64,000 nt of DNA from Petrosia ficiformis. Its lineage: Eukaryota > Porifera > Demospongiae > Haplosclerida > Petrosiidae. Below are positions 150-40,360 of the stretch, piece by piece. Location: assembly GCA_947044365.1 (NCBI GenBank), contig OX345636.1, positions 34,105,212 to 34,169,211 of the forward strand, in the 5' to 3' direction. Within the stretch, counting starts at the first letter, position 1; each line of letters begins with the position of its first letter. Below the pieces are notes generated by a model. The model ran no database searches. It saw nothing but the letters and a program-made list of their open reading frames with translations, and was not told the origin of the DNA. Both the position numbers and the translations under genes were made by a program.

Positions 150-405
150 ATGACAGAAGATGTAGCGATGTCAAAACCCAAAAAGCACACTTACAAGGCT
201 GGGGTAGTAATAACAAGGTAGGTTAACATAATAAGTACCTTACACTGCTATAAAGCAAAAGACAGACAATTGTACTTATGAAGGGTTATATGGAAGTAAT
301 TTTTTGGGATTTTGGGTCCCATGTTAACCTATTGTGTGACTACTATTCCGACCTTGTCTGCATGCTTTTTGGGTTTTGACATCCCTGCAACTTCTTTCAT
401 TTTTA
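150..405. repeat. Foldback repeat, copy 1
   Basis: The left arm (agatgtagcgatgtcaaaac and following bases) is answered by a right arm ending near 405 in inverse orientation (gttttgacatccctgcaact). The inner arms also pair (gttaacat near 223, atgttaac near 320). Related foldbacks lie at 28334-28638 and 33344-33530. The structure is that of a foldback/MITE-like element able to form a long imperfect hairpin. Confidence 0.65.
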
Positions 406-731
406 TTTTTATTATTTTTTTGTGAATGGTGGAAACTTTTTGCAGATTACAGAATTACTGGTGTAAGTTATCATCTAAATCATACAATCATAATTGCATT
501 AATGCTTCAATGTTTACAGCATAATTATATATGCACAATTACATTCATCAACGAAACTTAGTATTTGGTGTATATCAATTCTTTATGAGTTGATAATCAT
601 TCATTTAAAAATGATGACTATTATTTTCTATTTCACTTACAGCATTGTCTGCAGTCCGACAACAAGTAACACTGTGTCAACTACTCAGTATTCAATGCTT
701 ATAGTACAATGTGTATATTGATTATATATCA
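406..731. repeat. Dispersed repeat adjoining the foldback
   Basis: This block (marker strings 'tttacagcataattat', 'ttcacttacagcattgtctg', 'tattcaatgcttata') recurs beside the other foldback copies: 29150-29236 continued at 33125-33330, and again at 33530-33830. The DIRS-like element begins at its right edge, so this repeat was probably the insertion target. No coding capacity was seen. Confidence 0.6.
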
Positions 732-995
732 GAATGCTCAGTTTCAATATCAACTGTGTTTGGGTCAATTTTTCTAACACTGACAGCTATTTAGTAGTAA
801 TTTTCCATTATTTATGGTATTTTGACCTAGTGGATCACTTGTGACTCCACCACGTGCTGTATTGACCTTTAATTTCATTTGTCAATGTCACGTGACACTA
901 TCATGTGAAACACAAAGGTGTTGATTTAGGTGAAAAGGTCTGTGCCTATATCACCACATGGCTTCTCCACCTTAGTTGGGCTTTTTATTAGCTCG
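732..995 (+). repeat. DIRS left inverted terminal repeat
   Basis: Read forward, this segment matches the reverse complement of ~4595-4852. Shared anchors in order are the ends of 'atatcaactgtgtttgg', 'ttgacctttaatttcat', 'gacactatcatgtgaaacac' and 'gatttaggtgaaaaggtct'. Identity is high through the central 120 bases and weakens inward past 'cacatggctt'. Confidence 0.85.
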
Positions 996-1034
996 CAGAG
1001 AAGTCTATCTTCTGTTAGTCAAGCTCTACTAGCC

Positions 1035-1640
1035 ATGTCTTCAGAAAATCTGTTAGTGTCAGAGACAGTCACAGTACCAACTATGCCGTCAGGCAAAGCC
1101 CCAACAATGGTAGATGTTATGAGAGCGACTAGCCAGATGGGTAACCGTTTCTCTACAGCTATAGAAGCTATGTCCACTCGGATAGCACAAACGGAAGACT
1201 AGGAGAGCCTACCACCAACATCATCAAACCCCACCATAACTCAGAGAGGTGACAAGGGTGAGTCAGACAGACTCAACCTGTGGGTAGATCGCTCTATGTC
1301 AGAGACATTTGAAGAATATTCAATAATGGGTTGGGAACCCATCGATGACAAGTTGCAAGGGGAGACCTGTACAATCAACAAGGTGTTGGATAGCACGGAT
1401 CAGTTCCTAAAGGAAGCTTTCAACAAAACTCTCCCAAATATAGCAAGACTACAAACTAAAAAAGTATATGGATTCCTAAAGAATTAGGAATCCAGATGGC
1501 CAAAGTTGGACCCTTTAGTCAAGAGACAGATGTCTAAAAACAATAAAGCTCAGGACATTGAACTCTCAAAGACCCAGCTGTTAGGCATGGATGCTATTGG
1601 TCCACTTCCATTCCTCCCATAAGAAGCATCCAAGGAAGGA
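1035..1640 (+). pseudogene. DIRS gag-like region, broken
   Basis: Two short open pieces (about 1035-1202 and 1296-1487) lie between the left terminal repeat and the RT region, where DIRS elements place their ORF1. The first is Ser/Thr-rich (begins MSSENLLVSE); the second is acidic and contains EEYSIMGWEPIDD. The frames differ and a stop at 1201 separates them. The gag-like identity is inferred from position only, since ORF1 proteins are poorly conserved. Confidence 0.4.
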
Positions 1641-1892
1641 ACCACCTCAATACCTACACAAGTAGTAATTGAAGTTAGCAGGAAGGCTTTAAGACTGCTG
1701 GGTTTTGCCACAAGCCATATATCCACACTTCGGAGAAAAAAATCCTTAAGGATCTAATTCTTGACTTCACAAGACTGGAAAGAGAAGACGTAATCAAAAG
1801 CTCAGCACCTTTTTTTTTGGTGAGGGCTTAGAAGTCAAAGCGAAAGCTTACACTGAGGGACTGAGGTCCCTCTCTACTGGCTCTTCTTCCAA

Positions 1893-3390
1893 ATGGAAAG
1901 TGGATTTTCGGGAACACCGACCGTCGTACAGCGGTGGCCGCCAGAGACCAGTATTCAATCTAAAAAAGCAAAATACTTTTGTACACACCCCACACTTCAA
2001 AATGGAGGGAGTGCATATGTTGAAAGACAGTCACAAGCAAGGGGATTGGTTATCAAAAATAGATCTGAAAGATGCATTTTTCATGATCCCAGTTCATCAT
2101 CAGGACAGGAAGTTCCTGAGATTTCAAAATCAAGGGAGGACATATCAATTCAAGTGCCTACCACTCAGCCTATTCAGTGCACCCTGGGTCTTTACCAAGA
2201 CCCTATGTTCGATAGTGACCCTCCTAAAAGAATTGGGTCTTCAGATGGTTTTCTATATAGACGACACACAGGTGATGGCCGAATTAGAAGCACAATTAAA
2301 AAACCATGTTCAGTGTTTACTGTACCTACTCAAGAACCTGGGGTACATCATCAATAATTACAAAAATCAGTTTTGACACAAACAAAACAGTTGGAGATTC
2401 CAGGGTTCTTTCTGGACTTAGACTCAGCAGAGCTGAAACTTCCAACACACAAAGACAAAAAGATCAGGCAGGATGCCCAGAAATTACAAAAGCATTCGCC
2501 CACAACAGCAAGGGAACTACCTTGATTCAGCCACAAAGGCCATTTCTCCAGCACCCTTGTTTTACAGATGGTTGCAGAGGGACCTCATCAGAGCCATAGA
2601 TCAGAGAAATCAGGATTACGAAGTCCAGTGTCTACTGTCACTGCCAGCACAAATAGAACTGGAGTGGTGGATCACACATCTTTCCCTGTGGAATGGGAGA
2701 AGCACTATAAAACACAATGTCCGTGGAAAGAGATGTATCACTGAAGGGATGGGGGCAATTTGCAGAGGTGTTCAGACCGGAGGTACTTGGTCCATACAGG
2801 AACAATCCTGGCACATAAACTGCCTACAGTTGTGGGCAGCAATGCTAGTAATTCAGTGTTATGCCAGAGACAAAAAGAGTATAACCATTCTACTGCTGAT
2901 GGACAACACCAAGCAGTATCATATGTAAACAACATGGGAGGAACAATATCAGAGCAATCAGCCCAGTTGGCAAGAGACCTGTGGATGTGGTGTCTTCAGA
3001 GAAACTTCCATCTAGTAGCTCAAAATCTCCCAGGAAAACTGAATGTCGTAGCAGACATGGAGCCAAGGCCCTGTTTGATTGTACAGACTGGACGATCCAG
3101 CCATCAGTATTCAAAGTTCACTGGAAGTTGATATATTTGCATCCCGGTTGACTCATCAGGTTCCACAGTTTTTCAGTCGGAAACCAGATCCACTTGCTAT
3201 AGCAACCAATGCATTCCTACAGGACTGGGGTCCACTGAAGGGATATGCAAACCCTTCATGGGTGTTGATAGGCAGAGTCCTATCGCAAGCACAGGAACAA
3301 GCAGCAGATCTGGTACTAGTAGCACCAGTCTGGAAAGGTCAGATATGGTACGCAACACTGTTGGGTATGCTATTGATTACCCTCTCCTGA
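1893..3390 (+). pseudogene. DIRS reverse transcriptase and RNase H, broken
   Basis: The frame at 1900-2376 shows RT motifs in order: FVHTPHFKMEGV, GDWLSKIDLKDAFFMIPVHH (catalytic Asp in DLKDAF), KCLP, and the active-site YIDD at 2254-2265. It then shifts. Pieces at 2473-2928 and 2760-3131 carry the RNase H-like part (ELEWWITHLSLWNG, LLLMDNT, SYVNNMGG, LPGKLNVVADMEPR). The 3079-3390 piece (EVDIFASRLTHQVPQFFS) continues it. The match is to DIRS rather than Gypsy enzymes. At least three frame changes make it non-functional. Confidence 0.8.
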
Positions 3391-3534
3391 TCCCTCAAGA
3401 AGACAACCTGTGGTGTAGGTATATTATGGAGGGGGGCATGGACATAGCTCCTCAGTTAGCCATATGGCATATCTCAGGAGACGTTATGAAGTAAAAGCAC
3501 TTTCAAAAGAGGCTACAGACCGCTTGTTGTCATC

Positions 3535-4330
3535 TTGGAGGAAGAAATCCACCTCCACATACGATTCCCTGTTTGCAAAATGGGCAACCTGGTGTATGGA
3601 AAGGGATACAGTTTCTGTTTCGTGTCCTGTGACATAGTTAATGTCTTAGCCGAGTTATTCAGAAAGGGTATCAATATAGATCCCATAATTCATTTTGATC
3701 ATCCGTCTCATCAATGCATGAGAAAGTGGATGGCATGGAAATAGGACAACATGCATTGGTCTCACATCTACTGAAAGGGGCATTTAACTCTCAGCCCCCT
3801 CTACCGTGTTACGATGCTATGTGGGATGTGAAGACAGTGACCACTTATCTAAGTGGTATGCGGAAGAATGAGAGCCTGTCATTACAAGCATTCACACAAA
3901 AATTGGTGATGCTGTTTAGTTTAACCCGCCCATCATGGGTGGCAGACTTTGCACAATTAAATTTGCATATTGCAAATTCCTCCAGGAGGGGGTGTGTTTT
4001 ACAGCATCAGGACTGGCCAAGCAGTCCAGACCAGGAAAAGCTCTACAGGAGTTTTTGTTTTAAGCTTTCCCTCATGATTTAAACCTATATCCTGTACAGA
4101 CATTGAGAATATAATAGCAGAGACCTCATGCATTGAGATCAGGTGGTACATTATTGATTGGTACAGTAAAACTACATAAACCTGTGACATCATCTACAAT
4201 AGCTAGATGGTTATGTACTGTTTTTGAAAAGTCAGGTATTGACATTTCCATTTTTAAAGCTCATTCAACCTGCGGAGCAGCTGCTACAGCAGCCTCTATG
4301 AGAGGTATAACAACACGATATACTAAAAGC
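3535..4330 (+). pseudogene. DIRS tyrosine recombinase, broken
   Basis: The pieces at 3535-3744, 3714-4082 and 4133-4330 form a core-binding and catalytic region (MRKWMAWKIGQHALV-like start, then TRPSWVADFAQLNL, then SGIDISIFKAHSTCGAAATAAS). In DIRS recombinases the last motif normally carries the catalytic Arg of HxxR. Here the codon at 4271-4273 is TGC, so the Arg is replaced by Cys, a change expected from C-to-T decay of a CpG codon. With the frame breaks, this copy cannot recombine. Confidence 0.75.
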
Positions 4331-4439
4331 AGTGGATTGGATTTCAGAATCAGTATTCACAATGTTTTATTACTAACCAACAAGAAATGTATCCTTCTGA
4401 GAACTGGTAATCTCAACTTCAAATCAAGCTACAAATAAC

Positions 4440-4555
4440 ACAGTTGATATCTCAACTTCACATTCTGATTTATAATATAAGAATGGCTCAAACCACGTAG
4501 TGGTTGCAAGCTATTCTGTATTATATGAAAAATGTGAAGTTGAGATATCAACTGT
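4440..4555. repeat. DIRS internal complementary region
   Basis: The segment 4478-4555 (from taagaatggctcaaaccacg to gagatatcaactgt) is the near-exact reverse complement of the element's right extremity (~4828-4905). The first part (4440-4470, cacagttgatatctcaact) is a direct copy of the right-end sequence at ~4830-4860. The region is therefore itself a hairpin. DIRS elements use it to join the two ends during formation of a circular intermediate (known for the family). Confidence 0.8.
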
Positions 4556-4594
4556 CCCACCCACCACAACCCTGGCATGTGATATATAGTTGGC

Positions 4595-4905
4595 TCACTA
4601 GAACAAGGCCGACTAAGGAAGCCATGTGGTTATATAGGTGGAGACCTTTTCACCTAAATCAACACCTTTGTGTTTCACATGATAGTGTCATGTGACATTC
4701 AACAATGAAATTAAAGGTCAATACAGCGTGAGGCAGAGTCACAAGTAATCCACTACGTCAAAATAAACAAAGGAAAATTAGTACTACTAATAATTAGCTG
4801 TCAGAGTTAGAAATATTAGGCCAAACACAGTTGATATCTCAACTTCACATTCTTTGTATAATACAGAATAGCTTGCAACAACTACGTGGTCTGAGCCATT
4901 CTTAT
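4595..4905 (-). repeat. DIRS right inverted terminal repeat and extremity
   Basis: This is the reverse complement of the left terminal repeat up to ~4852, followed by ~50 bases (gcttgcaacaactacgtggt and neighbours) that pair with the internal complementary region and are not present at the left end. The asymmetric ends are normal for DIRS elements. Confidence 0.8.
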
Positions 4906-5439
4906 TATTAGTAATAACTATTATTGTATACACGTCTGAGAAGGCGTGGTTAGAGTTGCCAAATTTTTGACCCTAAGCAAAAATTAGTGTTTAACAGTTA
5001 AACAGTTTCATTAATTAAGAAAGTTAACATATATCAAGTCCATATGAGATGGAAGAGCAAGATGCAACAGGTCATGGGTTAGTTTTAGAGGTGTTGCCTG
5101 AAATGGTCCTAATGTATTAGCTTCTTCACAAGACAAGACAACCAAAGCACAACAGGAAATCATATATAATTATGTAGACTAGATTATTAGTACCATCAAT
5201 CAAATCTCTCCTCTCTAGTTTCTGTGCCTTGTTTAGCTCTGTCTCCCTCTCTTTTCTTTTCCTCGATCTCTTTATCTATCACGCAGTGACTTTAATTTTG
5301 AGAATGTATCAGGTATATGACGCTTAGACGAAGAGCAATTAGACCGTCGTTAACGTTTTTCGCCGGTATGGCGTGACGAAAAGTCAACGCGGTTTAATAG
5401 AACATACGGAATTAAGTATATACGTACAGCACTATCCTT
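4906..5439. other. Intergenic, nothing recognised
   Basis: No gene or repeat could be supported. A pyrimidine-rich run lies near 5212-5280. It is followed by a short, locally CpG-containing stretch (5330-5395) that stands out from the AT-rich surroundings but has no readable frame. Confidence 0.4.
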
Positions 5440-6109
5440 TATACAACTAGATATACAAAGAAGCAGAATAACATTTCAATTAAATCTTATTAGGTTTCCA
5501 AACCTTCTTTGTGCATCTAATAGGGTTATTAGATGTGATATAATTTGTATGAGCATGTTATTATTCAGTCATGATCATAAATTAACCAATATTTTAACAA
5601 TTTTATTTTTGCAGGGCATTATTTGGTCGTCATGTTCACTTAACTTTTGTCTATATTAAATGAAACCTGTTGCCATAGTATGTATGTGTTATAAGATATT
5701 CGATGCCAGAAGTACTCGATTCTTCAATCTGCTCCAACGTAATCAAATCAACTACCTATTCTGAAACCAAGACTGATTCCAAAAAACTGCCACACACACC
5801 ACTTCTGGCGAATTAAACCACACACATTTAGATGATAATTTTTATGAAATAGGCTGAGTTATACTTTTTTGTTATTACTATAGTACCCCCTGGAATATCA
5901 TAGACTAAGAGCAATAAACTCGCAATTAGCAAGAGAACTTGTTTGTGTGCACCAGTAGTTTAGAAGTAATAATTTAGTACTCATTGCCAACTTCAAATGA
6001 TTTTGTACTGAATTAGAGTATGACATTTTGGTATCGCCTATCATCATAATAATAACAATTACAGTAAATATAATACTTTTATATTAAACATGAAAGAACA
6101 TGTTGGGAT

Positions 6110-6295
6110 ATTCAAGCACACATACCAGATAGGATTGCACCTCAGCAGCAAAATTAAACAAACCACTTTACATAAGCATAGTTATATGTAATAATTATAT
6201 TTACTACAGCTAGCTACTTATTTAGGGTTATAAGGATGCTGAGGCACCACCCCAATCGTAGTTGTGTGCTTATTTAGTTTTGATATCCTCTATTA
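6110..6295. repeat. Foldback repeat inside copy A
   Basis: The left arm 'cagcagcaaaattaaacaaa' near 6142 and the subterminal 'caccccaatc..agttgtgtgctta' near 6248 correspond to the foldback at 36880-37030 in copy B, where the arms still pair well. The right arm is partly lost here. Confidence 0.5.
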
Positions 6296-6641
6296 ATTTT
6301 TCTATAATAGATGTTTTAATTATTTTGCTTATCTTCATTCTTTTATGGGACTTAGTAGCTAGTTTGAAATAAAAATTATGCAATTGGAGGGGGTAAGTTT
6401 GTTAACTTTTGTTCTTATTATGTATACCTTTGGATTACAATTTGGCAGAGATATTAGATTCGAAAATTGTGTAAGTTAGATAATTATAATATTCATACAA
6501 CCATAATTGAATTATTGCATCAATGTTTAGGCTTCTTCAGTATGAAAATACCCATGATAGTACAATTTATAAAAAATAATAAGAACTTTGTCATAAAAAA
6601 TGAAAGAACATGTATGGATATCTAAGCACATGAACATATTA

Positions 6642-6678
<37 letters not shown>

Positions 6679-6690
6679 TATATATATACT

Positions 6691-7111
6691 GCAAAAATAA
6701 AATTGTTAAATTAACAAACTTATTGGTTAGTACAGTTGCAAGGAATAGTGGAAGTTGTAATTTATTTGGTCGTGTAGATTGTTATGGATATACTTGTAAT
6801 TATAATCTAATAATAGTAATTTCATTATCCTTATGCCTTATGCTGTCTAATAGATGTACAAAGAATTAGAATAAGTATTTTAATTGAATCATTGTGAGTT
6901 TCAAAACCTTCTTTGTGCATCTAATATGAGATCTTAGGCATGATAATTGTTATAATTGACACATATATATATCTTTTACATATTTTAATATAATTAGTAC
7001 AAAGTAGCTATGATGTTAGATGTATTTATCCTCAACAACCAACTAATTGTTAAATCCTTGCAACTGCACTATCCAACTTATTAATTATTTTAACAATTCT
7101 ATTTTTTGCAG
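6691..7111. mobile_element. MITE with ~20-bp terminal inverted repeats
   Basis: The left end ctgcaaaaataaaattgtta is matched by the inverse of the right end (taacaattctattttttgca). The inner arms also pair (gttgcaagga and its inverse near 7055). The segment is absent from the corresponding place in copy B, consistent with insertion after the duplication. Single ends of the same family occur at ~5595-5625, 36475 and 39432. No coding sequence. Confidence 0.6.
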
Positions 7112-7169
7112 TGTATATAGAATTATTATAATATAGCTAGATGTATAATTATAATATCAATTTACTTAC

Positions 7170-7254
7170 CTTGAACAATCTCATCAAACATTTCGCCAAG
7201 TGTACTACTTCCCAGCAACAGTAATGATAATATTGCTAAAAGATGTAAGTCCAT
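7170..7254 (-). CDS. Orphan signal-peptide exon, copy A
   Basis: ATG at 7254-7252 starts an exon reading MDLHLLAILSLLLLGSS and on to an acidic mature start, ending with a phase-1 GTAAGT donor after 7170. The hydrophobic core and small residues before the predicted cleavage point mark a secretion signal. The copy-B twin (37487-37571) differs at a few residues only and is followed by Calx-beta exons. Here no downstream exon was found on the minus strand before the duplication edge at ~5440, so this is probably a duplicated first exon without a gene body. Confidence 0.6.
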
Positions 7255-8703
7255 TGTAACTAAGGTATAAAGAAGGGAAATTCCGTCAGAGGGTAATTCC
7301 GATTTCGCTGTGACAGTTACAGGATTTTATTGCCGCAGCGCAGAACAGCTAGTTTTTTTATAGGTTATGCGGGCATAATTCTGGAATTATCGGCATGTTT
7401 TACGGGAATATTACACGTGTTCGTTAATTAAAAAACCTTTGGACATGTGTCGACGTCTGCCTCTTGGGGATTGAGACTAAAAATAGTGAGAAATTCAGTG
7501 ATTCAACTTAGTAGTTATTCTTCTAAAGAAGTGGATGAGTGTTTTGTGTCACATGTTTCACTGCTAAGTAAGCTTCGAGCTCAGTCTGAATTTACAATTT
7601 TATTAATAATAAATGAAGAAAATGAACATAATCGGTATAGTTCATGAGCATAATTGTATAGTTTAGGAGTATAATGGGTCTGAAGTTTGGGAATTGCTGA
7701 AAAGCATATGTATTAAATAAAAATGAAAACATAATAGACTCATGCCTAAATCTTTAATAACTTGTAACTATCTTACTTCTTGCTTGTGATGAGTGAGAGA
7801 CTACACAGAAATATTGATATGATGGCATTATTGACCACACGTGACAATTAATCTCAGTTACAAGCCCTCCCCTTCCCCATGCCAAAACCTAAATAGTTTC
7901 CTATAGATGCCATTTGGTAACTAGTACCATGGGAAAAGTACTTTGCAAAATGTTTGATTCTTTTTTTGTGCTTAGAACTACATGTCAAATGGAACGTGTT
8001 TCCAGCAGTTTATGACACATAATTGTATTGCATATATACTGTATCTATACATAAAATACTACTTAATAATTATAATAATTATGATGTACATATTTAGCCA
8101 CACACCCCTCATTAAGCATTTTTTTGTTTCACTGGTTTTTCTCAGGGTAGCACCCTTTCCATTGCTCTGGATCTGTCCTAAGTTGAACAGCCATTTTGTG
8201 ATAATTTTATCAAGAACCCTCACACGAACTACATTCATGATTTTTGATAAAAATGATGATTTTGTCTTTATTATCATAGTCATAATAACAAAGACCACCA
8301 TGTGCAATTACATTGGAATCATGTGCAGAAACTTGTGAAGTGGGTGGAGCTAAAAAGTGAATGTCATGGTAGGAAGCTAAGAACCGTCGTTTGTACTGTT
8401 TGTTGTTTCTCTTCTCTAGTATATCATAGTTAAATAGCAAATGTATTGGTTAGTATAGATGCAAGGATACAACATTATAATTTAATTGGTCCATGCAGAT
8501 TGCATACTTTTACCAATTACACTCAATTATCATGTCCAATATCTCATATTAGATGCACAAAGAAGGTTTGGAAACCTAAAATGATTTAATTAAAATTTTA
8601 TTCTGCTTCTTTGTATATTTAATAGACAGTATAAGGATAATTGAAATTGCAATTATTGGATTATAATTACATATATGTCACCATACATGCATGCAGTCAT
8701 AAC

Positions 8704-8738
8704 TGTGCCGTGCCAGTTAGTGATGTGCTGGTTAGTGG
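8704..8738 (+). repeat. Left terminal inverted repeat
   Basis: Starts TGTGCCGTGCCAGTTAGTG and continues with a second related motif (tgctggttagtgg). It matches the inverse of 14428-14462 with about one indel. The inner motif and the outer motif are imperfect tandem copies of each other. Confidence 0.85.
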
Positions 8739-9010
8739 AGGGCGTATGCTAAAAAAAACGTTGTGCCCCTGCCCACAATAATTATTAGTCTATTATTAAA
8801 ATAACCATGCTGTAAAATGGCGACTTCCAGCGAAGATAGTACTGTGGTGACGAACTCTTGTAAGTTGTAACAGAAAAAGATATTGAGGTATGATCTTTTC
8901 TATCCTATCCCCTACCTGATATAGTAAAAACCTGAGTTGGCTACATGAATATGAACTCTTTTGTTATATTGTACCAGGTCTATATATATATATATATATA
9001 TATGTATATA
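8739..9010. other. Left subterminal region of the TIR element
   Basis: No clear gene. A short plus-strand start at 8817 (MATSSEDSTVVTN) is followed by a GTAAGT-like donor at about 8860, so a small divergent first exon is possible. No continuation was found and I do not call it a gene. Confidence 0.3.
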
Positions 9011-9180
9011 GGATAACAATAAACATTATTTTGCCACTACAATCTTCACACTATCCAAAAGAATTATGAAATAAATGCATTTATATATATATATATATAT
9101 ATATAGGATAACAATAAACATTATTTTGCCACTACAATCTTCACACTATCCAAAAGAATTATGAAATAAATGCATTATGA
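9011..9180. repeat. Tandem duplication with (AT)n spacer
   Basis: Two nearly identical ~75-base units (ggataacaataaacattatt onward) start at 9011 and 9106, a period of 95 bases. Each is preceded by an (AT)n microsatellite. The array lies just 3' of the protease stop codon (9195) on the minus strand, so it is probably in its 3' UTR or just beyond. Confidence 0.85.
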
Positions 9181-9194
9181 ATTATGAAGTAAAC

Positions 9195-12100
9195 TTAAAT
9201 ATCTTTGAAACCAATTGGAGCTAGGGAATGTTCAAGATAACACTGCAGTGATTGAACTGTTGAAATTGAAAAGGTTTCTTGAAGTATTTTTATCATTGCC
9301 TATAGTAAAAATATCAGGAGTGATAACAATAGCTATAATATGAAAATTACATAATACCTCTGGCCATAAAATCGATTTGACTAGCACTTTTGGAGGAATG
9401 TGTTTGTGTTTTTTTGATGTAGCCAACATCTCCAAGTAATAGAATACTTCATTCACCTATATAATTATATTATAATAATATACACAGGTTATTTAAATTA
9501 TATACATAGTGTGTGAAAAGCTGAATTACCACTACTGGATGAGACAATGGCCATGTTATTGCTGGCAGTGTATCTTTATCACGAACTCTCTTTGTCCGAA
9601 GAACCTCAAAGAAAACACTTCTTTGAGGTGATGCAGCAATTTTCTGTAGTTCAATCTTTAAAATGTTTAGAATTATAATTATTATAATTCTAACTGTGAT
9701 GATTGTTGTACCTCATTCTTTTTTAAAATATTAATCATCTTAACTCTCACAATGTGTCCATCCCTAATATGTTTTAGTTTCATAAATAAAAGTTACTTAT
9801 AATAATTATGTATTTACATTCACCTTTCTGGTGGTCTACTTTGGAGTACACTGGATTTGGCAATTGATCTCACATGATCTTTTGCAGTACTGAAAAACAA
9901 TACTTCCGATGATTCTTCTGGGGTGTTTTCTTCAGTCGTATCTGGCATCAGTATTGGAATATCATCTATGTCGGATTCTGTTGGACATGATGGATTGATA
10001 TCAGCATTACTGACGTTTAATAATTTTCCGTGTTCACCTTCACCAGCACTTGTGAACTCTGTGATAGTATCAGGGCTGGTACAGCTGTCATCTGTGTTAA
10101 AGCATGTTCACATATCACAACAAGTATAAGTGTACAGCTCTCACCATCATCATATTCTATAGTTGATCTTTTTCTTTCTTCCCAATGCAAAAACTTAAAT
10201 GATGGCATATATAATTATAATCAACAGTATATAATTCATACACTCACTTCATTCTGAGCTACATCAACATCAGCTTTAGTGCATTCGACAGAAAGTGAGG
10301 TCCAATTATTAATTGATGGAGTATCAACATAAATTGATGTGAAGCTGTTATAGTGTATTTATTATGGAATGTTGCCACACATACAAGCTATAGATTTCAC
10401 CTTGAAATTATTTCCTTTGTCAGCCACTTCCTAAGATTAGCCTACTCTGACTGAAATTATTATATGTTAATGTAAAATAGGCATTACAGTTCAGTTCTTT
10501 TTTTTGGAATTAGTTTCAACTATATGAATATATATATTATATATAATGTATATATTTTACTATTAGCCGATTCACCTCAAATTGTAAGCCTTTGTAATCA
10601 TTGTTGACTATCACAGCTGCATACTGAAATTTTAATAATAATAAATGATTATACTAAACAAATTTCCAAAATATCAATTATACCTTGCAAACAAAGACCC
10701 CACAATCATTTCCATTTGTTTGGTGTGATTTTTCCTGAATTAACAGGTAATTAACAGGTAATTATTTACAATTAATGTATGTACCGTTATCTTTTCAATG
10801 GACTGTTATCTTTTCAATGGATCAATAGCTCAAGAAGTTTGCTAAATTATTAGAGTATAGAGAAGAATTATCTATAAATTATTCATAGGATTTCAATTGC
10901 AATATTTATTTAGTATGAGAGAATCAAGTACCTGATAGAATAAATCATTGACTTCAAGTTAAATTTGATTGGTACATTTAAAGGATCATAGTACCGTATA
11001 ATTCTTTTACACAAATCTATTTCCTATAATAACAAATATTAGCATTATGAATTATTAATATATACTATATAAAGCTCAATGCATACCACAAGTATCCAAT
11101 GTTTTGCAGTATTAATAGGAATCAGCAGTCTTCTTAATTGACTAAGCTCTTCTAGTAGTTGATCTGTTGAACTTGTAGAGAGTCTACCATCAAGCAGTGA
11201 TCTAATCTTAGGGGTGAGGCACATTAATGAATCTCCATTAATCTCTACCACCTTATCTAAGACATGAAAAGCATAATCTCCTACTGTTGAACGCAGTGGT
11301 TGCACACTGTCTGTTATTTTTAAGCCAACGTCAGAAAACTGGCTTAACCACATCTCATCAGCAATGTCATCCAGTTGATCAGTACAAGAAATGGTTTTAC
11401 CATATAAATTATTCAAAGCACACAAACCACATAGATTTGACTGACCTTGAGATTGCATCCATATTGGTGAATGTAATATGTGGAGATGATTCTGAACATT
11501 TTTTGGTACTTGATGACCTATGACACATGCAGCATAGCGGATATTGGTTGAAAGATTGGTTTTCTCGGAGGAGCTTAATTGTGACCAAAGTTGAAGGCTT
11601 TCCCTTGCACATGTAACTATTTGTTCTGGAATGTTTTGCTGCGTTAGACCACATACAAGTGAGGCAAGACGCTGTGTGGACAAAACAGCAAGGTTTGAAG
11701 TAGGGGACATAAAGAATAATTGCTCAGGAAAAGTTGTAGTAGCTCTCAACATTATTGAACTTTTATGCTTTCCATTTTTTTTTGCTTTTGCTCCCAACAA
11801 CCTATGTGATGATTGTTTGCCGGGTGTCTTCATAGATAACATACAACTATGCTTTGATCTCTTTACTGGAGGTTCAAAACTACATTCTTCATCTTCCTTC
11901 TGTCTCTTGCTTGTATTTTCATTACGTAATATTTCACTCCCCATATCTTCGGTATTTGGAGGATTATCACCTTTTGTTGCAACGAAGAATCCACAGGATT
12001 TTCCGGCTCTTTCATACCACTCCTTGCAGCATATATGTTGGCTAGGTTTCAGGAGTTGAATGCAATGTACACATGAATGTGATACACCCAAAAAAGACGG

Positions 12101-12841
12101 CAATTCTTTCCTGTGGATACAGAATGAGAAGATTTGGGTGTTTTGAATCCGTGATTCTTCCCATATCTGTATTCCAGATAAATAATGCGAGAACTTTAAC
12201 TCATTTAAAGCACCAACAATCAAAGAATATCTAATGGAACAATCATCTCGGAATGCCTTGTAAGAACTACCACTGCAATAGTAACTCAAAAAGCCAACAT
12301 CACATGCCATTGAGAATATATCTATCAGAAAAGATGTATCGTTGACTCTACTGTTCTGACCTGAAATTTGATTCAATATGTTCTCAGGACTGGTGGGCGT
12401 AGAGTTTGGAATACTCTGGATTGAGCCAGAATGTACTTGCTCACGTAATCTCAAACTGTATTCTGTGATGCTATCGGAGGCACTAGCAGTGACTGGCATT
12501 GGTTCAATGCAACTGCTATTAGTCGATGTTCTGCTTATCATCATTCCTCCGTATTGAATACACGAGCATGGGTCTCCAGCGCTATTTTTGTAATCAATTG
12601 CATAATATTCACATGGAAGGCACTGTTTCACTACACCTACTACATTAGCAAAAGTCACCAGGCCATACTGATCAGGCTTCTTGAAGTAGACTTCATCGCC
12701 AACATTGTATTTCCTTCCATCATACTTTTTGACTTGAGCAAAGTATTTTTTATAGTAACGCCATTCAGAATGCTCAAGCACATTCATGCGTAACTCTGCT
12801 CTATTTCTATTCAATTGTGATAAGCTTGAGTTAACAGGCAT
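9195..12841 (-). CDS. Josephin-like/Ulp1-type cysteine protease, 12 exons
   Basis: Exons read on the minus strand: 12841-11087, 11023-10932, 10734-10684, 10623-10576, 10441-10401, 10344-10248, 10193-10145, 10091-9824, 9763-9712, 9655-9530, 9456-9358, 9299-9195 (stop TAA). Phases agree at every junction except between exons 2 and 3. Residues ~15-85 (KKYDGRKYNVGDEVYFKKPD) resemble the small domain after an integrase core. Cys471 lies in QSNLCGLCALNNLYG, a Josephin-like signature. The C48/Ulp1 order follows: His581 in KHWILV, Asp598 in RYYDPL, then Gln and Cys in QTNGNDCGVFVCK. Basic runs (KRSKH) suggest nuclear location. Ulp1 enzymes cut SUMO-like modifiers (family knowledge). I chose the ATG at 12841 because upstream sequence is minisatellite. 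The last ~250 residues are unrecognised. Confidence 0.75.
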
Positions 12842-14205
12842 GGCTATTATTACATGTTCAAGTGTTCTGGTTAGTGAGAAACTCAATTTCACTAACTGGC
12901 ATGGCTATTATCACATGTTCAAGTGTTCTGGTTAGTGAGAAACTGAATATCACTAACTGGCATGGCTATTATCACATGTTCAAGTGTTCTGGTTAGTGAG
13001 AAACTGAATATCACTAACTGGCATGGCTATTATTACATTTTCAAGTGTTCTGGTTAGTGAGAAACTCAATTTCACTAACTGGCACGGCTATTAACTAACT
13101 GGCATGGCTATTATCACATGTTCAAGTGTTCTGGTTAGTGAGAAACTGAATATCACTAACTGGCATGGCTATTATTACATGTTCAAGTGTTCTGGTTAGT
13201 GAGAAACTGAATATCACTAACTGGCATGGCTATTATCACATGTTCAAGTGTTCTGGTTAGTGAGAAACTGAATATCACTAACTGGCATGGCTATTATTAC
13301 ATTTTCAAGTGTTCTGGTTAGTGAGAAACTCAATTTCACTAACTGGCACGGCTATTAACTAACTGGCATGGCTATTATCACATGTTCAAGTGTTCTGGTT
13401 AGTGAGAAACTGAATATCACTAACTGGCATGGCTATTATTACATGTTCAAGTGTTCTGGTTAGTGAGAAACTGAATATCACTAACTGGCATGGCTATTAT
13501 CACATGTTCAAGTGTTCTGGTTAGTGAGAAACTCAATATCACTAACTGGCATGGCTATTATCACATGTTCAAGTGTTCTGGTTAGTGAGAAACTCAATAT
13601 CACTAACTGGCATGGCTATATATTATTACATTTTCAAGTGTTCTGGTTAGTGAGAAACTCAATTTCACTAACTGGCATGGCTATTAACTAACTGGCATGG
13701 CTATTATCACATGTTCAAGTGTTCTGGTTAGTGAGAAACTGAATATCACTAACTGGCATGGCTATTATCACATGTTCAAGTGTTCTGGTTAGTGAGAAAC
13801 TCAATATCACTAACTGGCATGGCTATTATCACATGTTCGAGTGTTCTGGTTAGTGAGAAACTCAATATCACTAACTGGCATGGCTATATATTATTACATT
13901 TTCAAGTGTTCTGGTTAGTGAGAAACTCAATTTCACTAACTGGCATGGCTATTAACTAACTGGCATGGCTATTATCACATGTTCAAGTGTTCTGGTTAAT
14001 GAGAAACTGAATATCACTAACTGGCATGGCTATTATTACATGTTCAAGTGTTCTGGTTAGTGAGAAACTGAATATCACTAACTGGCATGGCTATTATTAC
14101 ATGTTCAAGTGTTCTGGTTAGTGAGAAACTAACTGGCATGGCTATTGTTACATGTTCAAGTGTTCTGGTTAGTGAGAAATTGAATATCACTAACTGGCAT
14201 GGGTG
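12839..14205. repeat. 61-bp minisatellite built from TIR motifs
   Basis: About 20 units of ~61 bases (catggctattatcacatgtt, caagtgttctggttagtgag, aaactgaatatcactaactg g). Each unit contains 'cactaactggcatggc', close to the outer TIR motif, and 'tggttagtgaga', close to the inner motif inverted. A truncated ~20-base unit (cggctattaactaactggca) recurs near 13088, 13352, 13677 and 13948, giving a higher-order period of roughly 265-325 bases. The array abuts the protease start codon and so occupies its likely promoter. Confidence 0.9.
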
Positions 14206-14427
14206 TTTTATTTGAAATCTGTAGAAGTAAACTAAATCACTAACATGTTGCCAAATCCAGACTTAAAATGCTAACAAGGCTATACTTGTTCTTGTTAGCT
14301 ATCCTTTTATCTGCATCAGTTCAGGTCAAGCCGAGTCGATCGCTCTAGCTATATAGCTTGAATAATTAAGGGCGTGTCCGGCGTGACATTAGTTTCTATA
14401 AAAAGAGGCGTGTCAAAGTGTTTTATC
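14206..14427. other. Right subterminal region of the TIR element
   Basis: Unique sequence between the minisatellite and right TIR. It contains a short GC-richer stretch (gcgtgtccggcgtgacat near 14373). No gene was found. Confidence 0.4.
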
Positions 14428-14462
14428 CACTAACCAGCACGATCACTAACTGGCACGGCACA
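14428..14462 (-). repeat. Right terminal inverted repeat
   Basis: Ends with CACTAACTGGCACGGCACA, the exact inverse of the outer 19 bases at 8704, followed directly by the ATAAC target duplication. Confidence 0.85.
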
Positions 14463-14491
14463 ATAACAACCTACATGACCTTGTTCCTTGC

Positions 14492-15257: not shown

Positions 15258-15420
15258 TTTCTTGCAACTGTTAGATAGAATGTATATGATGCAAAATCTT
15301 GTAGTTGTTGTGTACTATAATGCACACTGTTCACAGATATAATATCATAGACATTTTTAGAGGTAAATCCTCTCCAGAACAACTTATAGTAGCGGTAGAG
15401 TCTATGTGAGTATTCTTAGA
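15258..15420. repeat. Segmental duplication copy A, right end
   Basis: Matches 40203-40360 of copy B (cttgcaact.ttagatagaa, cagatataatatcatagaca, gaacaacttatagtagc). Similarity ends near 15420/40365, which defines the right border of the duplication. Confidence 0.75.
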
Positions 15421-18238
15421 TCTTTCCCTCTCCACCTGATGTTGTTTCCTTTCTCTTGTATTGTTCCACGGTCATGCATAATATGTTTTCCCTAGGATAT
15501 ATCAAGGGAGTCACATTTATCTACCACACCCACTAACCACACCTATTATTTACACCTTAATTATGTTAGGTGCACTTATATATATGTACGTCAAATTATT
15601 ACTCTACAGAAGTGATGTACTAGCAGATTATCTGATACAAACATCCTACTTTAAGCTATACATGCATTGTATGTAGTTCAACTATGACATTATAGATCTA
15701 TATGTAGTTCTACAATTAAACAGGTTCAAATTGCAAAAACACAGCCAATATATACAAACAACTAAAATTTCACCTATCAAATTCACAAATTTTGAAATCT
15801 ACAAACATTTCACCTACTTCATCTTCCCACAATAGCTACTCAACTTTATCTACATCTTTCTGAGGGCTTTGAGACGTTGGCACACTGGCCCAGAAACTCA
15901 TTGGATAAAGACAGCTAGCTCCTTTGCAGCTCTGGTGTCACAGCAAATCTGATCCCCTGAAAATTCGATGCTCCTGGGATACTTTATACAGCAATTTCGA
16001 TCCGCGTTAGCATTTTCAATATAGATACAGAAGTATTGGCTGAATACACCCAGTTGTTGGTACACCATAATGATTAGCAAAGCAGTATATATAGTACAGG
16101 TGAAATAATATTGAAGAATACATGAATTTGTTAGAACCTGAAACAAATATAGTAGATAATGCATACTGTATAATAATTATATATATAGACATGGAATATG
16201 ATAATGATGATAATGTGTGGTAGAGCTTATATAATTATAATTATACACACACGAAATATATATAATTATAAATTTATTTGTTTACATTAATATACTTTTA
16301 TAGTGTAATTATACTACTGCAAATTCAGCACTTCATTTGCTGTGTTTGTACTTTGTCAATATTCACACTAAAACTAATGTGAAAAGTGTTGTTTTAGTTT
16401 CATAGCTTGAAATGCTGCTTTAGCTACAGTTAACTAATGGTTTGTATAGTGTTTTTTAGTTAACTAAAACTATATAAATGCAAATACTAGATCTATTATG
16501 TTGGTTGAAATTTGAACTGCAGTACAAAGAAATTAAAACTGTACATTTATTTTCACAGCTTAGTGTATTACTAGTTAACTAAAAATTCATTGCAACTGAG
16601 CCAAGGCATCCATTACAAGTATACCTGTTATACTAAACAGCCATCAATAATATAATATTCTAGTTATAGATTAAAAATGAGAAAAAGTTCTCCTTACACA
16701 AGAATCTACGTGAAACCCTATTTGATCCTGCATGGTTTACAATAGACATGAATCTTTTCCTATATCCTTTCTCTTGTACTGTAGCCCATCTGGTTTTCAT
16801 GACTGAGAACATGATTATGAAGCCTTCTCGAAGTAGTTGAGCAGGTGTGCCCTCACAGCATTAAAGCAAAATGTCTTGACTGTTGATAATTGATAAGAGC
16901 TGTGGCATATGTAATGGTAAAAGGCCACAGTCATACCCTCCTGACTGTCTTTGAAACATCATTGTACTTTATATTTAGTGGAATGGCTGGTTTTTTGGTT
17001 GTGTGACGGGCTGGAGGATGACTTTGCTAAAAAAGGATAGAATATGCTATAGTCCATGTGATCTGGGGTGCTTCTAAACAGCTAAAAAATTTGTTCTTGG
17101 GAATTGAATCTGCTAGCATACGCAGCAAGGGTTAATAATTATAATGTATGTATAAGGTATAGCTATAACCTGTGGGGTATTATTACCTTTCCCATTCAGA
17201 TATCTAGGAAAACAACAGGTGTTACATACATCCTCATTACTACTAGTATGTAATTATGCATATACATGAATTTATACTTATAATAGTAAATAGCATCTGA
17301 TGTACTCTTCAAATATTTGAGACGTTATATACACTAGCATACATATGTACTTAATGTGTGGAGTATATTGTATTGTTTTCGAATGTATATACTAGTGAAA
17401 ACAAATTAAAATCAAATGAAATAAATTTCTGCTTATAAAAATTACCTGGTAAGAAAAGAAACCAGTATTGATTTACATAGTCTATCATTAATATTGGACT
17501 GAAACTCACTGACGATTAAAATAATCCACCAGTGTACTAATATAGCTAGCTATATGTGTAAGCTTTTTTTTTGTAAAAAGCAATAAGTTATTTTAACCCT
17601 AATTTGAAAATATACATGACTGTCAATACTACTAAATCAAACCTGATGTGTTTTCCTGTTAGGTAATATATGAAATACTGTTTCTTTTGATGTTAATATT
17701 GATCTATATAAAAACAAACTAAGCATGGTAAAAAAAAAGCAATACACTTATATTATTGTAATTTCTTTATTCATTATTAATTTTGTTGAGTATAATAGTA
17801 CAGATGTTGTTTGTACTAACCACTCTTGAATGTAGCTATATACTTAACTTAGTTTACGTCATATTTTATATAATAGCATACCACATGTACAAGCTGTACT
17901 TAAGCTAATTTTTACTTTCAATGCATTTGAAGTGCAATATATTGTTGTTGATATGTATACAATATATATTTTATGGAAGCTAAGGGACTTAACAGTTTTC
18001 AAGGCATATAACTCATCTATTGTTTGATTTGAGTGGTATAAACCATATGTATAATTTGTTGTTGGTGTGAGTTGGTACACCATCACTGCTAAATGTTGTA
18101 GTGTTTTCCAACTGTTTGACAAGTCAAGACACTGTGTTATGTCTATCTATATTGCTGCAATGAACACATGCAATTTTATATTACATAATGTGTAATGAAT
18201 GCAAAACTAAATTAATAGAAACTTTGCTAGCTGCCTAA
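15421..18238. other. Intergenic, no gene supported
   Basis: About 2.8 kb of AT-rich sequence. A locally GC-richer segment (~15840-16060) gives a minus-strand open frame of 88 codons, but it has no recognisable domain, and adjacent frames with coding-like composition contain stops. The rest consists of short microsatellite-like TA runs. Confidence 0.4.
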
Positions 18239-18889: not shown

Positions 18890-21800
18890 TCATATTTTAG
18901 TTTTTGGATCTTTCTCTCCATCATGATCTGCACATTCCAATGTTACACCAAAAGAGTATTCGTCCAACTTTTCTTCTGCATTTGACAATTCATTCATTTC
19001 CTGTTTCTCATTTTCTTCACAATCAGTATCCAAAACTGTAGTAGTTTGATTGAAATTAGATTCCTCCATTCCTGCTTCTTCATTCAACATGCTATTGTCA
19101 ATTGTCATCACTTCTACTAGAGGAAGAGTGGATGTACTGGCTTTCTTTCTCGAAGTATCTTTATTTTCTGAGCTTCTGGCATGTGAGCGATACATTTGAA
19201 ATTTACCACTAAGCTTCCCATAAAACACTTGTTTCCAAACATTTTGAACATCTTTTGAACGAAGGCAGTGCATAATGAACAGAAATAATCCATGAAAAGC
19301 AGTGATAATCACAGACAGAGCAGCAAACATGTCACGAACCCATTCATTATCGTAAATATCTTGAGTAGCAATTAATCCAATGCCCCATCCTAAACCAAAC
19401 AAAATGGAAAGAACTGTAACAATGACAAGCTGTTGACGAACAAAAGAAATGTTTTCTTCTTTCTTCTTGGAATTCTTTGATGTCCAAGTTTTATGAAGTA
19501 GTGAGAAAATTATGATGAAAAATACCATCCAGTTGAAAATGTAAATAATCAAGAAAGGAACCACCATTCCAATATAGTGTGGTAGATTAAAAGCACGACA
19601 ACTATAGAATGGAATTTATAAATAAAGTTTATTATTATTCTTTGTAAATTATATAACATTAGAATTATAATAACAAAGACTGTTCTTGTATACAAAATAT
19701 AGACATGAGAGTACAAACACAAACCTCTATACTTCAGTACAAACAAAGTGTACAAATAAGACTGATAAAATATATTATATAGACTTAAACCTGGAATCAG
19801 ATAATTAATGTGAAATAAAATCATTAAAAGTAATTATAAAAAGAGGATATATAGGAATAAAAACAAAGAATAAAGAAATATAAAGATAGGAAGTGTAGAG
19901 CAAAAAAAATCCAAAGCTATATGTCCGTAGTTGTTCAAAATGGTTAAATGTTTGACATACTTTGACTAAGTTTAAGTTCATATTTATTGATTAAAAACTT
20001 ACAAATGATCGCTGACATAATTTTCATAATTTGGAGCAAAGCAGAAGAGGACAATAAATATTGGTGTCACTAAGGGACCATAAAGAATTGTGATTCACAC
20101 ATAACTGCTCTTACACATAATTATAAACATATACACCTATAACAATAATTAGCAATAATACTTACCCCAAGAAACAAGAGTAGCTTTCAAAACGAAGTGA
20201 GGTATATTTCTTCCTAGAACAACAACTAGCTTCATATAAAGGCTAATAGCCTCAGATGCCATAATCATAAAGCTCACAAGAAAAAAATACTGCAGAGCAG
20301 CAGCTACAAATGCACATAAACCAATTACTGGTGTGCTGTGAACAGCAAGTATGAAAGTTATATATAGACCAATTAAAGCTAAACATAAATTAATGAGTAG
20401 TTGACCATTTTCTGAGGTACGTAATTTCCTGAAGTAAAGAACAAATATCACACAGAAAAAAGTTACAAATAATTAACATACTTGCTACTTAGATATGATA
20501 TGATGGTAATAAGTAGACAGAAAATTGATATGATTATTCCAATGTATGTCACGGCATTCAGTGCAACAGCCAATGATATTTCTTCTGTTGGTTCAACAGG
20601 TGACATAGACTGTAATGTTATAAGCAAAAGACAAATCAATGTAGTGGATGTGTGTATTTGACCAACCAGGAGTATAGAAAAGCTAGTCAAATGATCACAG
20701 AAACATGTAACATAATCTTGAGTATCAATATAACTTTCATCAATTTTGCATCCATCAGATGACAATCTCCATATCCATCTATATTGAAATAATATACTAG
20801 TAGCAATTAATGCTACTTTGCACATATGTTTTTACCATCTAAAATGGGGTTCCAATAAGAGCAGAGAATACTTGAACCATTGATACTCTATATGAAAATA
20901 TCAGATTTACAACAAGAATTAAATCTATCATTGTTATATATACCGGGTTTTTGAGGAAGCTTATGGAGACAGGTGGATCTAGACCTTCAATTGAGTTATA
21001 TCCTACAACACTTGCTGAGATAATAATACCTCCAACCTCCAGGTCATTACTATCTCTCCTTAAGAATAAACTATCAGAAAGGAAGACTGCATGTGTGATT
21101 CTAGTATTATTAGTAACATTAGGAACTGCACTGAATAAGTTATTAGGAAGTCTAATGGAAGCAGTTGCCTGTGTGGTCATTCTCTTTTCAAATGACAGAT
21201 CACTAGAGTCAATAGTCTCATCCGTGTTTAGGTTTGAAAAATTTCCAAGATTAGCACTGAAGTTTTGACCTATCTCCATGAATTGATTAAGATCTACTTG
21301 CTGTGCTGAAACTGCAAATGTCCTTCGGGTAATAACCACAGGTTTTGAAATATTTCCAATCAGAATACCTCCAACTATAAATCCAATAGCTTCAAGTATC
21401 CTATTGCAAGATAAAAAATGCCAGTTACTTTCATGAAACATTCTCACTTGGCTGAGGTATTGGAAGATTCTTGACTCTCCTGTAATATATCCTCATCTAT
21501 ATTTATTATATTATCCACAACATTCAAAAAATCATTTGTCAGCTGTGAAAAGTAATTTTTGAAACCTAACATATTGCTGCATCGTAGAGCTCATAACTTA
21601 CAGATAAGTTTCCCGATACTTCATCTGTTGTTGTAAGCAGTACAGCAACTGAAAAAATAACATCTGTTGATCCCAAATCATTTCCAAAATCAGTGATATC
21701 TTGCAGTTGTTCTATCCTTTCATTTGTTGGTAACTACAGATTGACATTTTGTAAATGTGCATCTATAAAAATTGAAGTGTACACACATACATTCGCTAGT

Positions 21801-37571: not shown

Positions 37572-38522
37572 TGCAACTAAGGTAATGGAGGGCAATTCCA
37601 ATCTCACTGAATAATCAAATAGCGAGCATAACTCTACAATGATCGGCCGTTTTACGGGAATATACACCTGTTCGTTAACAATGAAAATCAGGACATGTGA
37701 CTGTGGTGGGATTGAGACTAAAAATAGTGAGATTTCAGTGATTCAACTTAGTACTGCAGAGGTGGATTATGATGTTTTGTGGCACATGTTTACTCTGCCA
37801 AGTAAGTCCAAGATTTTCTGAATTTACAATTTTTATCGATAATAAAATTTAATTAAGAAAACGTTTAGCATAATGAGCATAATCGGCATAGTTCACGACT
37901 ATAATGGGTCTGAAGTTTGGGAATTGTTGATAATAGCTAAAAATGAAAACATAATAGACTCATGCCTATATAGTCTTTTATAACTTGTAAGTATCTTACT
38001 TCTTCCTAGTGATTCGTGAGATACTTCAGAGAACAATTTATTTGCAATGTTAACAGTATGACGGTATTTTTGACCACACTTCACAATTAATCTCAATTAT
38101 AAGCCCTCCCCCTTCCCCATGACCAAACCTAATTTTTTTTCTACACATTTGGCAGTACCACAGGGAAACTTTGTGATTTTACTTACTGCTATTATAAAAG
38201 AAAAGCATTGTAATATTTATGCTGCTGGCGTTTCATATTGAAATGTCAGGGATGGCTGCCCTCCCCCTCAAATATTTTTGCACCCCTGTAGTCCCCATTC
38301 CCACTGACGCCTATGGTACTGCTGTGGTGCTTATATTGCTCTGCATTAAATTACAATGGAATAACCCCACACAAGAAACGGAAATTGGAATGGTCATCCA
38401 ATGACATTATTATATCTTGTTATAATCTAAACCAATTATATGTTTCTTTTACATTAATTATTACACTTTATTAATTGTCATTTGAAGTCGAGAGATGGAT
38501 CTAAGAGGTTGCCAGGCACCAC

Positions 38523-39013
38523 TAGGCCTGCGGAAAATATGCTTAGCATAATTTAAGAATAATTGGGAAGATAAAATTTACGGGAATATTCCGAGCATAA
38601 TTGGAGTGAGCACGTGTTAAATGGCTGAAGCTAGAGTGAGGCAACAGAACTAGAAATAGTCTTGTGAGCCAGACTATACTAGAAGGTGACAACGAACTGC
38701 TAACAAGTGACACAGAACTTGAAGCTGAATTAAGCTCTTCTAGCAGTACTGTATCTTTACTTGATAAACTGAAACCACCACGACTGTCGGACCTCTCAAG
38801 GAAGAGTGACAAAAAAAAATCCTCCACACGATTTGAAAAGGTTAAAGGGTCCAAACTCTCGAAACAATCCGAAGACCATGTGATGTTTTTTTGTCCTTTT
38901 TCTAGCATAATCTTAGAATAATAAGTGAGTTTTTGAAAGAATAATTGGAATTTTTAAAAGCGCAGAAGAATAGAATAATTTCTAATTTTTTGGGCATAAT
39001 TTCCTCAGGCCTA
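38523..39013. mobile_element. hAT-type element with perfect 8-bp duplication
   Basis: Terminal repeats TAGGCCTGCGGAAA at 38523 and the inverse TTTCCTCAGGCCTA ending 39013 are flanked by an exact 8-bp duplication GGCACCAC (38515-38522, 39014-39021). Both subterminal regions contain several 'gcataat' and 'agaataatt' motifs, typical of transposase-binding repeats. Inside, a plus-strand frame (38664-38921) is Ser-rich then Lys-rich (ELSSSSSTVSLLDKL, RKSDKKKSSTRF) and may be a leftover of a transposase leader. Too small to be autonomous. Confidence 0.8.
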
Positions 39014-39741
39014 GGCACCACCCTTTGAGTTCATTAATGAGATTCATAGCTGCTACTTTATCACTTTGCAAAGCATTTTTTTGGTTCCTACTGTATGCCT
39101 TTTCTATGGGTAGCACCCTTTCCATGGCTCTGGATCTGCCCTCGAGTTGAACTGCTATTTCACTGAGAACCCTCACAAAAACTATATACAATCACAGTTT
39201 TTGATTACTGACAATGATTTCATCTTTTTATTTTAGTTGTGCAAAAAATTGAATAAGAACAAAGACAATCATGTGCAATTACTCTTGAATCAAGTGCAGA
39301 AACTTGTAAAGTGGTGTAGCTAGAAAGTGACTGTTATGGTAGAAAGCTAAGAAGCATCATTCCGTGTTGTCTGTTATTTCTCTTTACTCGTATATATCAT
39401 TTCTGCATGCACAGTGCATACATGGAACTGAAAAAAACAGAATTGTTAAAATGTATTGATTAGTAAACAGTTGCAATGATGCAATTATAATTTAATTGGT
39501 CCATACAGCTTGTATCATTTGTATGGCTGCCTGATAAAAGATACTTGTACCAATTATAATCAATTATCATGTCCAATATTTCATATTAAGTGCACAAAGA
39601 AGGTTTGGAAACCTTAAATGGTTCAATTAAAATTTTATTCTTCTTTGTATATCTAATAGACAGTATAAGGATAATTGAAATTGCAATTATTGGATTATAG
39701 TTACATGTATGTCACTGTGCAGTCATAACAACCTACATGAC

Positions 39742-40168: not shown

Positions 40169-40360
40169 TAAATGACCAATTAAATTACAGTTTCCATTAT
40201 TCCTTGCAACTATTAGATAGAATGTATATGTTGCATAATCTTGAATTTTGTGTACTATAATGCCCACATTTCACAGATATAATATCATAGACATTTCTGG
40301 AGGTAAATTCTCTCTAGAACAACTTATAGTAGCAGTACAGTCTATGTGAGCATTCTTAGA

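Follow-up and report, generated by a model that had tools for sequence, protein, structure and literature searches.

A 5,759-bp segment in the genome of the sponge Petrosia ficiformis has the ends of a cut-and-paste transposon and carries a protease gene without a recognisable transposase core, which raises the question of what moved it and to which group of elements it belongs. The segment (8704–14462, minus strand) lies within a 64,000-nucleotide stretch of contig OX345636.1 (assembly GCA_947044365.1, positions 34,105,212 to 34,169,211), the whole of which is referred to here as the window; its gene is also on the minus strand. We conclude with high confidence that the segment belongs to a low-copy cut-and-paste family which combines an integrase with Josephin-type and Ulp1-type proteases and moves by the mechanism proposed below, and that this copy, having undergone internal deletion, is non-autonomous.

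The segment is bounded by terminal inverted repeats (TIRs) of 35 bp on the left (8704–8738, plus strand, TG end) and 36 bp on the right (14427–14462, minus strand, CA end), the difference being one C that the left repeat lacks relative to the family TIR, and by direct copies of ATAAC at 8699–8703 and 14463–14467. The terminus reads TGTGC. Inspection of the sequence bears out the ATAAC duplication, the TG...CA ends and the boundaries at 8704 and 14462 given in an earlier note on this DNA; the TIRs of about 35 bp that it described are also real, with the correction that their identical outermost run spans 21 bases, not 19. A subterminal tandem array with a unit of ~61 bp (12832–14202) repeats the TIR motif CYRGTTAGTG in both orientations, and this motif is matched 44 times in the element (TIR copies counted) versus once in the 58 kb outside it.

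The insertion can be compared with sites that lack it. The window contains an old collinear duplication, the two copies of which, A and B, extend over 5718–8703 and 36528–39729 in pieces that are 71–75% identical. Copy B, which aligns to the joined flanks of the insertion on both sides, has a single ATAAC at 39725–39729 (plus strand), so that, as previously claimed, the segment is absent at the homologous point and the break falls on the TIR boundary. The homology is long on the left (8114–8703 versus 39071–39729, 71%) and on the right runs on for only ~13 bases beyond the duplication (AACCTACATGACC); copies A and B diverge from there on, with similarity returning at 15258–15427 versus 40200–40367 (88%). 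In a third paralogous stretch, on the reverse strand at ~6767–6958, CATAAC runs into AAYCTACAYGACC without an insert; the 18 bases immediately left of the site are missing from this stretch. Loss of the segment from copy B by deletion was rejected, since the third stretch likewise runs across the site and the break coincides exactly with the TIR. Stronger empty sites than those of the window insertion were obtained for another copy, L023, the joined flanks of which matched 38 other places in the genome, all across the junction and with 76–93% identity (40 of 61 candidates were scored, two of the 40 being L023's own flanks); the two of these sites that were aligned are both gap-free at the junction. 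Searches with the joined flanks of two further copies, L015 and L011, did not find a full empty site.

Several other frames in the window were read by eye: 1765–2376 resembles a fragment of a DIRS-like reverse transcriptase, 18890–19615 looks like the membrane segments of an adhesion-type receptor, and 59769–60386 resembles the C-terminus of a hAT transposase. A scan of the window for Rfam families (at the gathering threshold) and for tRNAs found none.

Across the whole genome, a 26-base TIR end pattern matched 39 places with up to 3 mismatches (16 on the plus and 23 on the minus strand), and its reversed control matched 0; the TGTGC end occurs in 36 of the 39, although the pattern itself demands it. 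The genome thus contains further copies that have these TIRs and 5-bp target-site duplications (TSDs), as expected if the window segment belongs to a transposon family. Twelve copies could be read at both ends: L009, L010, L011, two in L012, L014, L015, L016 (the window copy), L017, L023, L027 and L029/L020, the last counted as one pair. A direct TSD flanks eight of them, four being of 5 bp (ATAAC in the window, CTGGG, AAGGT and CCTGG) and four read as 6 bp (ACCATC, CTAGTG, CTAAGT and GAGGAG, the last of uncertain length as it sits in a GAG repeat). In a chance control of 20,000 randomly drawn pairs of window positions, the rate at which a 5- or 6-mer matched in this way was 0.0017. No TSD was seen in the remaining four, L014, L017 and both L012 copies. 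The two L012 copies (226–9837) lie in opposite orientation, and their flanking 5-mers (GCCTC/GAGGC and CATAT/ATATG) are swapped between them in reverse-complement form, as an inversion between copies would produce.

Some further arrangements were noted among the copies. L013 has a 6-mer pair exchanged in the same manner as the L012 flanks. The copies in L028 (at 2432) and L031, which are inverted relative to one another and separated by 131 kb on C1, share an insertion end and identical flanks, and so do the directly oriented copies in L032 and L033, separated by 65 kb on C5; both pairs are either segmental duplications or features of the assembly. The L010 copy (170–289 and 6189–6310) is inserted in a tandem repeat of the GGGTCCTAATGGACTCCTAATG type.

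The longer copies of the family, up to 9,052 bp, carry the integrase core that is missing from the window copy, together with an SH3-like tail, a Cys-rich motif, a Josephin-type domain and predicted Ulp1/SENP exons. L014 (9,052 bp) holds every family part, but with a frame break between the tail and the Josephin domain. Its 707-aa frame matches the rve profile (PF00665, 53.1 bits, E = 4e-14) with a D192-D258-E294 triad at spacings of 65 and 35 (DD35E), in agreement with the DDE integrase of Ginger-like type that had been deduced from the ends. In an alignment of 13 rows, D258, E294, H121, C128, C160 and C164 are invariant and D192 is nearly so; the zinc motif N-terminal to the core is H-C-C-C, not H-H-C-C. 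Inspection of another alignment by eye revealed an aromatic-P-aromatic-Y pattern upstream of this motif and no GPY/GPF motif in the integrase tail. A profile of 14 relatives matched the prototype foamy virus (PFV) integrase in the PDB (E = 1e-29), which is also the best fold match (E = 9.9e-19) of a structure model for the related protein P0002 (mean pLDDT 62.8), and the SH3-like tail after the core comprises five strands in the structure model of a relative.

The Josephin-type domain is found in L014 in a 452-aa frame that overlaps the 707-aa frame. Scores for PF02099 straddle the curated cut-off of 26 bits when whole frames are scanned (26.4 for L009 and 25.5 for L014) and exceed it in all three isolated domains (34.2 for L011, 43.8 for P0023 and 30.1 for P0003). 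The Gln, Cys, His and Asp residues are invariant in four aligned sequences (Cys15, His132 and Asp147), and the presumed catalytic Cys is surrounded by LCxxxxLNN. With PF02099 above its cut-off and both Cys and His present, the domain falls within peptidase family C86 as a predicted enzyme. In the PDB, ataxin-3 was a weak sequence match (E = 0.1), two other PDB sequence searches with the domain matched nothing, and the predicted structure (pLDDT 40) was too poor for use; the putative Josephin fold rests on the profile scores, the conserved residues and the weak ataxin-3 matches. Four of the five Josephin matches in the genome lie in the transposon family, and the only one outside it (G000:C7:3704862-3704969) is partial, covering profile positions 118–153.

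Downstream of the Josephin domain, L014 contains seven predicted exons, each preceded by AG and followed by GT, that read on without a stop. A six-exon model with an earlier end to the third exon was rejected as it breaks the frame, which the next GT site and one additional exon preserve. The joined exons match PF02902 (Peptidase_C48; 64.4 bits, E = 1.7e-17) and align with human SENP1 (3e-13) over the His, Asp, Gln and Cys, so that, on the predicted joins, the product belongs to peptidase family C48. Each exon recurs in several other sampled copies with 92.7–100% identity, and no OTU domain was matched in the family. The exon joins of the transposase gene are predicted, as is a single transcript spanning all domains, the link from Josephin to Ulp1 being read purely from splice sites. 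In the window, the predicted exons bearing the catalytic His (KHWILV), the catalytic Asp (RYYD) and the catalytic Gln and Cys (QTNGNDCGVF) lie at 11087–11152, 10932–11023 and 10684–10734, respectively, all on the minus strand. A 95-aa acidic open stretch beyond them (9820–10107, minus strand) may be a C-terminal exon; it is present in nine of 11 other sampled copies and uninterrupted in four of those nine, and within it DIDDIPILMPD resembles a SUMO-interacting motif.

Among the genome copies examined, none was seen that is intact end to end or has all parts intact. L015 is without Josephin and most of Ulp1, and other genome places that match the integrase frame are partial or stop-bearing (63 scored of 475 candidates). 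Pairwise dN/dS values between copies range from 0.38 to 1.07; purifying selection between copies is therefore weak or absent.

How the window copy came to have protease parts and no core becomes clear from its alignment with the other copies, which carry two additional stretches. At the first junction (12832–12834, from comparison with L014), the window copy lacks everything between the tandem array and gene-strand position 3966 of L014, and with it the catalytic part of the integrase. The earlier note was right that no transposase core is present: the window copy matches only residues 433–689 of the 707-aa L014 frame, and the first domain of its protein is, as suggested, a post-integrase domain by alignment with relatives. 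At the second junction (11151–11152, with a 2-bp overlap), 1,014 bp are missing relative to L014 (5651–6664), a stretch that in L014 contains the latter half of Josephin and Ulp1 exons 1–3. The break falls at the start of a predicted exon and leaves the reading frame intact, producing a Josephin–Ulp1 chimera. An origin by splicing or as a retro-copy was rejected, as no GT is visible by eye on the donor side and the ends overlap by 2 bp; we take the junction to be an ordinary deletion. A further small rearrangement is present in the window exon between the Asp and Cys exons.

The resulting frame is open from stop to stop for 619 aa (11045–12904, minus strand) and contains, in order, the SH3-like post-integrase tail (approximately 12563–12748 from alignment), the family's Cys-rich CxxC...CxHxCC motif (approximately 12026–12073), in which the third Cys is a Ser in this copy, the N-terminal part of Josephin (11216–11443; 15.3 bits, alone below the cut-off) and the Ulp1 His exon, all on the minus strand. 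The presumed catalytic Cys of Josephin is kept and the His/Asp part is deleted. The multi-exon Ulp1 gene that had been recognised here is real in that the Ulp1 exons are present, whereas the 619-aa frame itself is a deletion chimera that includes a second, previously unnoticed protease type. As the deletions left the tail and protease parts behind, they explain why a protease gene was seen without a transposase core. The copy is non-autonomous, as had been proposed, having lost its integrase core to internal deletion, and an enzyme-shedding lineage, the other possibility raised, is not needed since further members of the family do have the core. It could instead be argued that the 619-aa frame is a new functional protein, domesticated or acting in trans, in view of its open length and of a second deletion that keeps the frame and joins at an exon start; however, the DDE core and the Josephin His and Asp are missing from it, a downstream predicted Ulp1 exon is rearranged, and dN/dS between the window copy and three others is 0.57–0.78, making this explanation very improbable and debris of internal deletion the preferred reading.

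A mechanism can be outlined around the ends, TSDs, empty sites, domains, presumed catalytic residues and deletion junctions that the sequences of the family display. The transposase would comprise, from its N-terminus, the H-C-C-C zinc motif, DD35E core, SH3-like tail, Cys-rich motif, Josephin domain and spliced Ulp1 domain. The integrase would bind CYRGTTAGTG in the TIRs and the subterminal array and join the ends to two target bonds separated by 5 or 6 bp; internal deletions would arise by interrupted gap repair after excision, and the deleted copies could then be mobilised in trans. The two proteases, the enzyme activities of which we infer, might act on the transposase itself, or on repair or chromatin proteins at the site of excision or insertion, by stripping them of ubiquitin and SUMO. 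The presence of Josephin-type and Ulp1-type domains in one transposase gene makes a protease role in transposition testable domain by domain, and the occurrence of 5- or 6-bp duplications in one family bears on how integrases space their two strand-transfer sites.

Relatives of the family were identified with both the integrase and the Josephin domain. The integrase retrieved 21 proteins, to which a profile search added proteins from Clytia hemisphaerica, and the Josephin domain retrieved P0022 (92%) and P0023 (32%). A Pfam scan of 13 relatives detected Josephin only in P0003 and P0023 and Ulp1 in none; in two C. hemisphaerica proteins it detected the integrase and neither protease. P0003 (1,201 aa) carries integrase and Josephin in one frame, and the fusion is therefore not a local accident; the window frame likewise joins the integrase tail to the Josephin half. 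A tree built from 41 integrase cores groups 19 members, including a hydrozoan and unnamed ones, in one clade (98/94). This clade, which extends the known integrase transposons by members from a sponge, joins a SCAND3/KRBA2-like group (99/98), apart from Gypsy integrases. P0024, P0026, P0027, L038 and L039 were omitted as near-duplicates and P0037, P0042 and P0044 as too short, and L040, P0022 and P0023 are not among the rows. The labels of the groups are our own: the SCAND3/KRBA2 names are borne only by P0013 (from a zinc-finger profile) and P0014 (from its source name), and P0033 and P0034 were assigned to that group before the tree was built. Several outgroup rows are long-branched, and the Gypsy rows are not recovered as a single group.

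The clade may deserve the rank of a superfamily of its own among integrase transposons, as sister to the SCAND3/KRBA2-like group and with the CxHxCC motif and TSDs varying between 5 and 6 bp as its marks; on this we stop a little short of an even judgement. Its position in the tree speaks for it, as do profile scores of 285–442 bits within the clade versus at most 143 outside (profile built from 13 members) and the CxHxCC motif common to the sponge copies, P0003, P0012 and one Clytia protein; against it, the outgroup branches are long, the TSDs and TIRs are seen in Petrosia only, and the tree rows do not include curated Ginger1, Ginger2, Polinton or GingerRoot sequences. Given that composition of the tree, superfamily rank is not claimed. 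The fuller proposal, of a new animal superfamily with TG...CA ends, 5/6-bp TSDs and a transposase that uses Josephin and Ulp1 to edit both tag systems, is offered tentatively, as possible rather than probable. If true, the transposase would, while transposing, edit the ubiquitin and SUMO tags that it bears itself or those of the repair machinery.

Three known types of element were set aside. In L014, the longest copy, the four frames of at least 110 aa are the integrase, the Josephin frame and two opposite-strand frames overlapping them. A Polinton is rejected as no DNA polymerase B and no other replication or capsid gene is among these long frames (spliced genes could escape this reading), an LTR retrotransposon as the ends are TIRs, not LTRs, and no reverse transcriptase is among the long frames, and a Mutator element as the DDE core is of retroviral type. 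The sister SCAND3/KRBA2-like integrases differ in that no protease domain is present in P0013 (Pfam) or P0014 (precomputed domain list). With ataxin-3/Josephin deubiquitinases, the Petrosia domain shares the Josephin profile match and LCxxxxLNN around the Cys; unlike in those enzymes, it is fused to an integrase in a transposon, and its presumed third triad residue is Asp. Among the literature matches listed for Josephin with transposon, integrase or Ginger, neither a Josephin-bearing transposase nor the pairing of Josephin with Ulp1 on one integrase is described in a title or in the opening of an abstract.

Comparison with other integrase transposons draws on parts of two published accounts. 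In the part used of one (PMC10045372), GingerRoot/IS3EU elements share 6-bp TSDs with the Petrosia family, and some GingerRoots have TG...CA ends, but they have no HHCC upstream of the core and mostly TA...TA ends, whereas the Petrosia family has H-C-C-C in 13 of 13 rows and TG...CA. According to the sections consulted of the other (PMC2836005), Ginger2/TDD elements share an integrase transposase without GPY/F, and TDD-4/5 make 5-bp TSDs; Ginger2 of animals has 4-bp TSDs at AT-rich sites and, in those sections, no protease domain is described. Relative to the RTATAY target of Ginger2/TDD, four of the eight Petrosia TSDs are of 6 bp and the targets include CTGGG, CCTGG and CTAGTG.

The closest likeness is to Ginger1, which, from the same sections of PMC2836005, shares a Gypsy-like integrase, TG...CA ends, a C-terminal cysteine protease (Ulp1 in several), introns and low copy number. 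Its marks there are a 4-bp CCGG or CCGT TSD, a TGTNR terminus, GPY/F, YPYY and an H2C2 zinc finger; its transposases carry Ulp1 or OTU, not both, several have introns, and the ends are of Gypsy-LTR type. The words Josephin and sponge do not occur in that paper, the authors of which suggest that Ulp1 and OTU, which recur in unrelated transposons, have a role in transposition, and that repair factors may be the proteins on which these proteases act while the element transposes. These likenesses would fit another Ginger1 family with integrase and Ulp1, in which the Josephin-like stretch would be diverged spacer sequence with no enzymatic role. We consider this unlikely: none of the eight direct TSDs among 12 copies is CCGG or CCGT, all being 5–6 bp, the TGTGC end does not fit TGTNR, no GPY/F is seen by inspection of the tail, and the stretch exceeds the Josephin cut-off in three of three isolated domains, with Gln, Cys, His and Asp invariant in four rows. 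The Petrosia core matches rve (53.1 bits) with an H-C-C-C zinc motif in place of H2C2, and the added Josephin combines two protease types. The Petrosia family works like a Ginger transposon, but with TSDs and a terminus that are not those of Ginger1.
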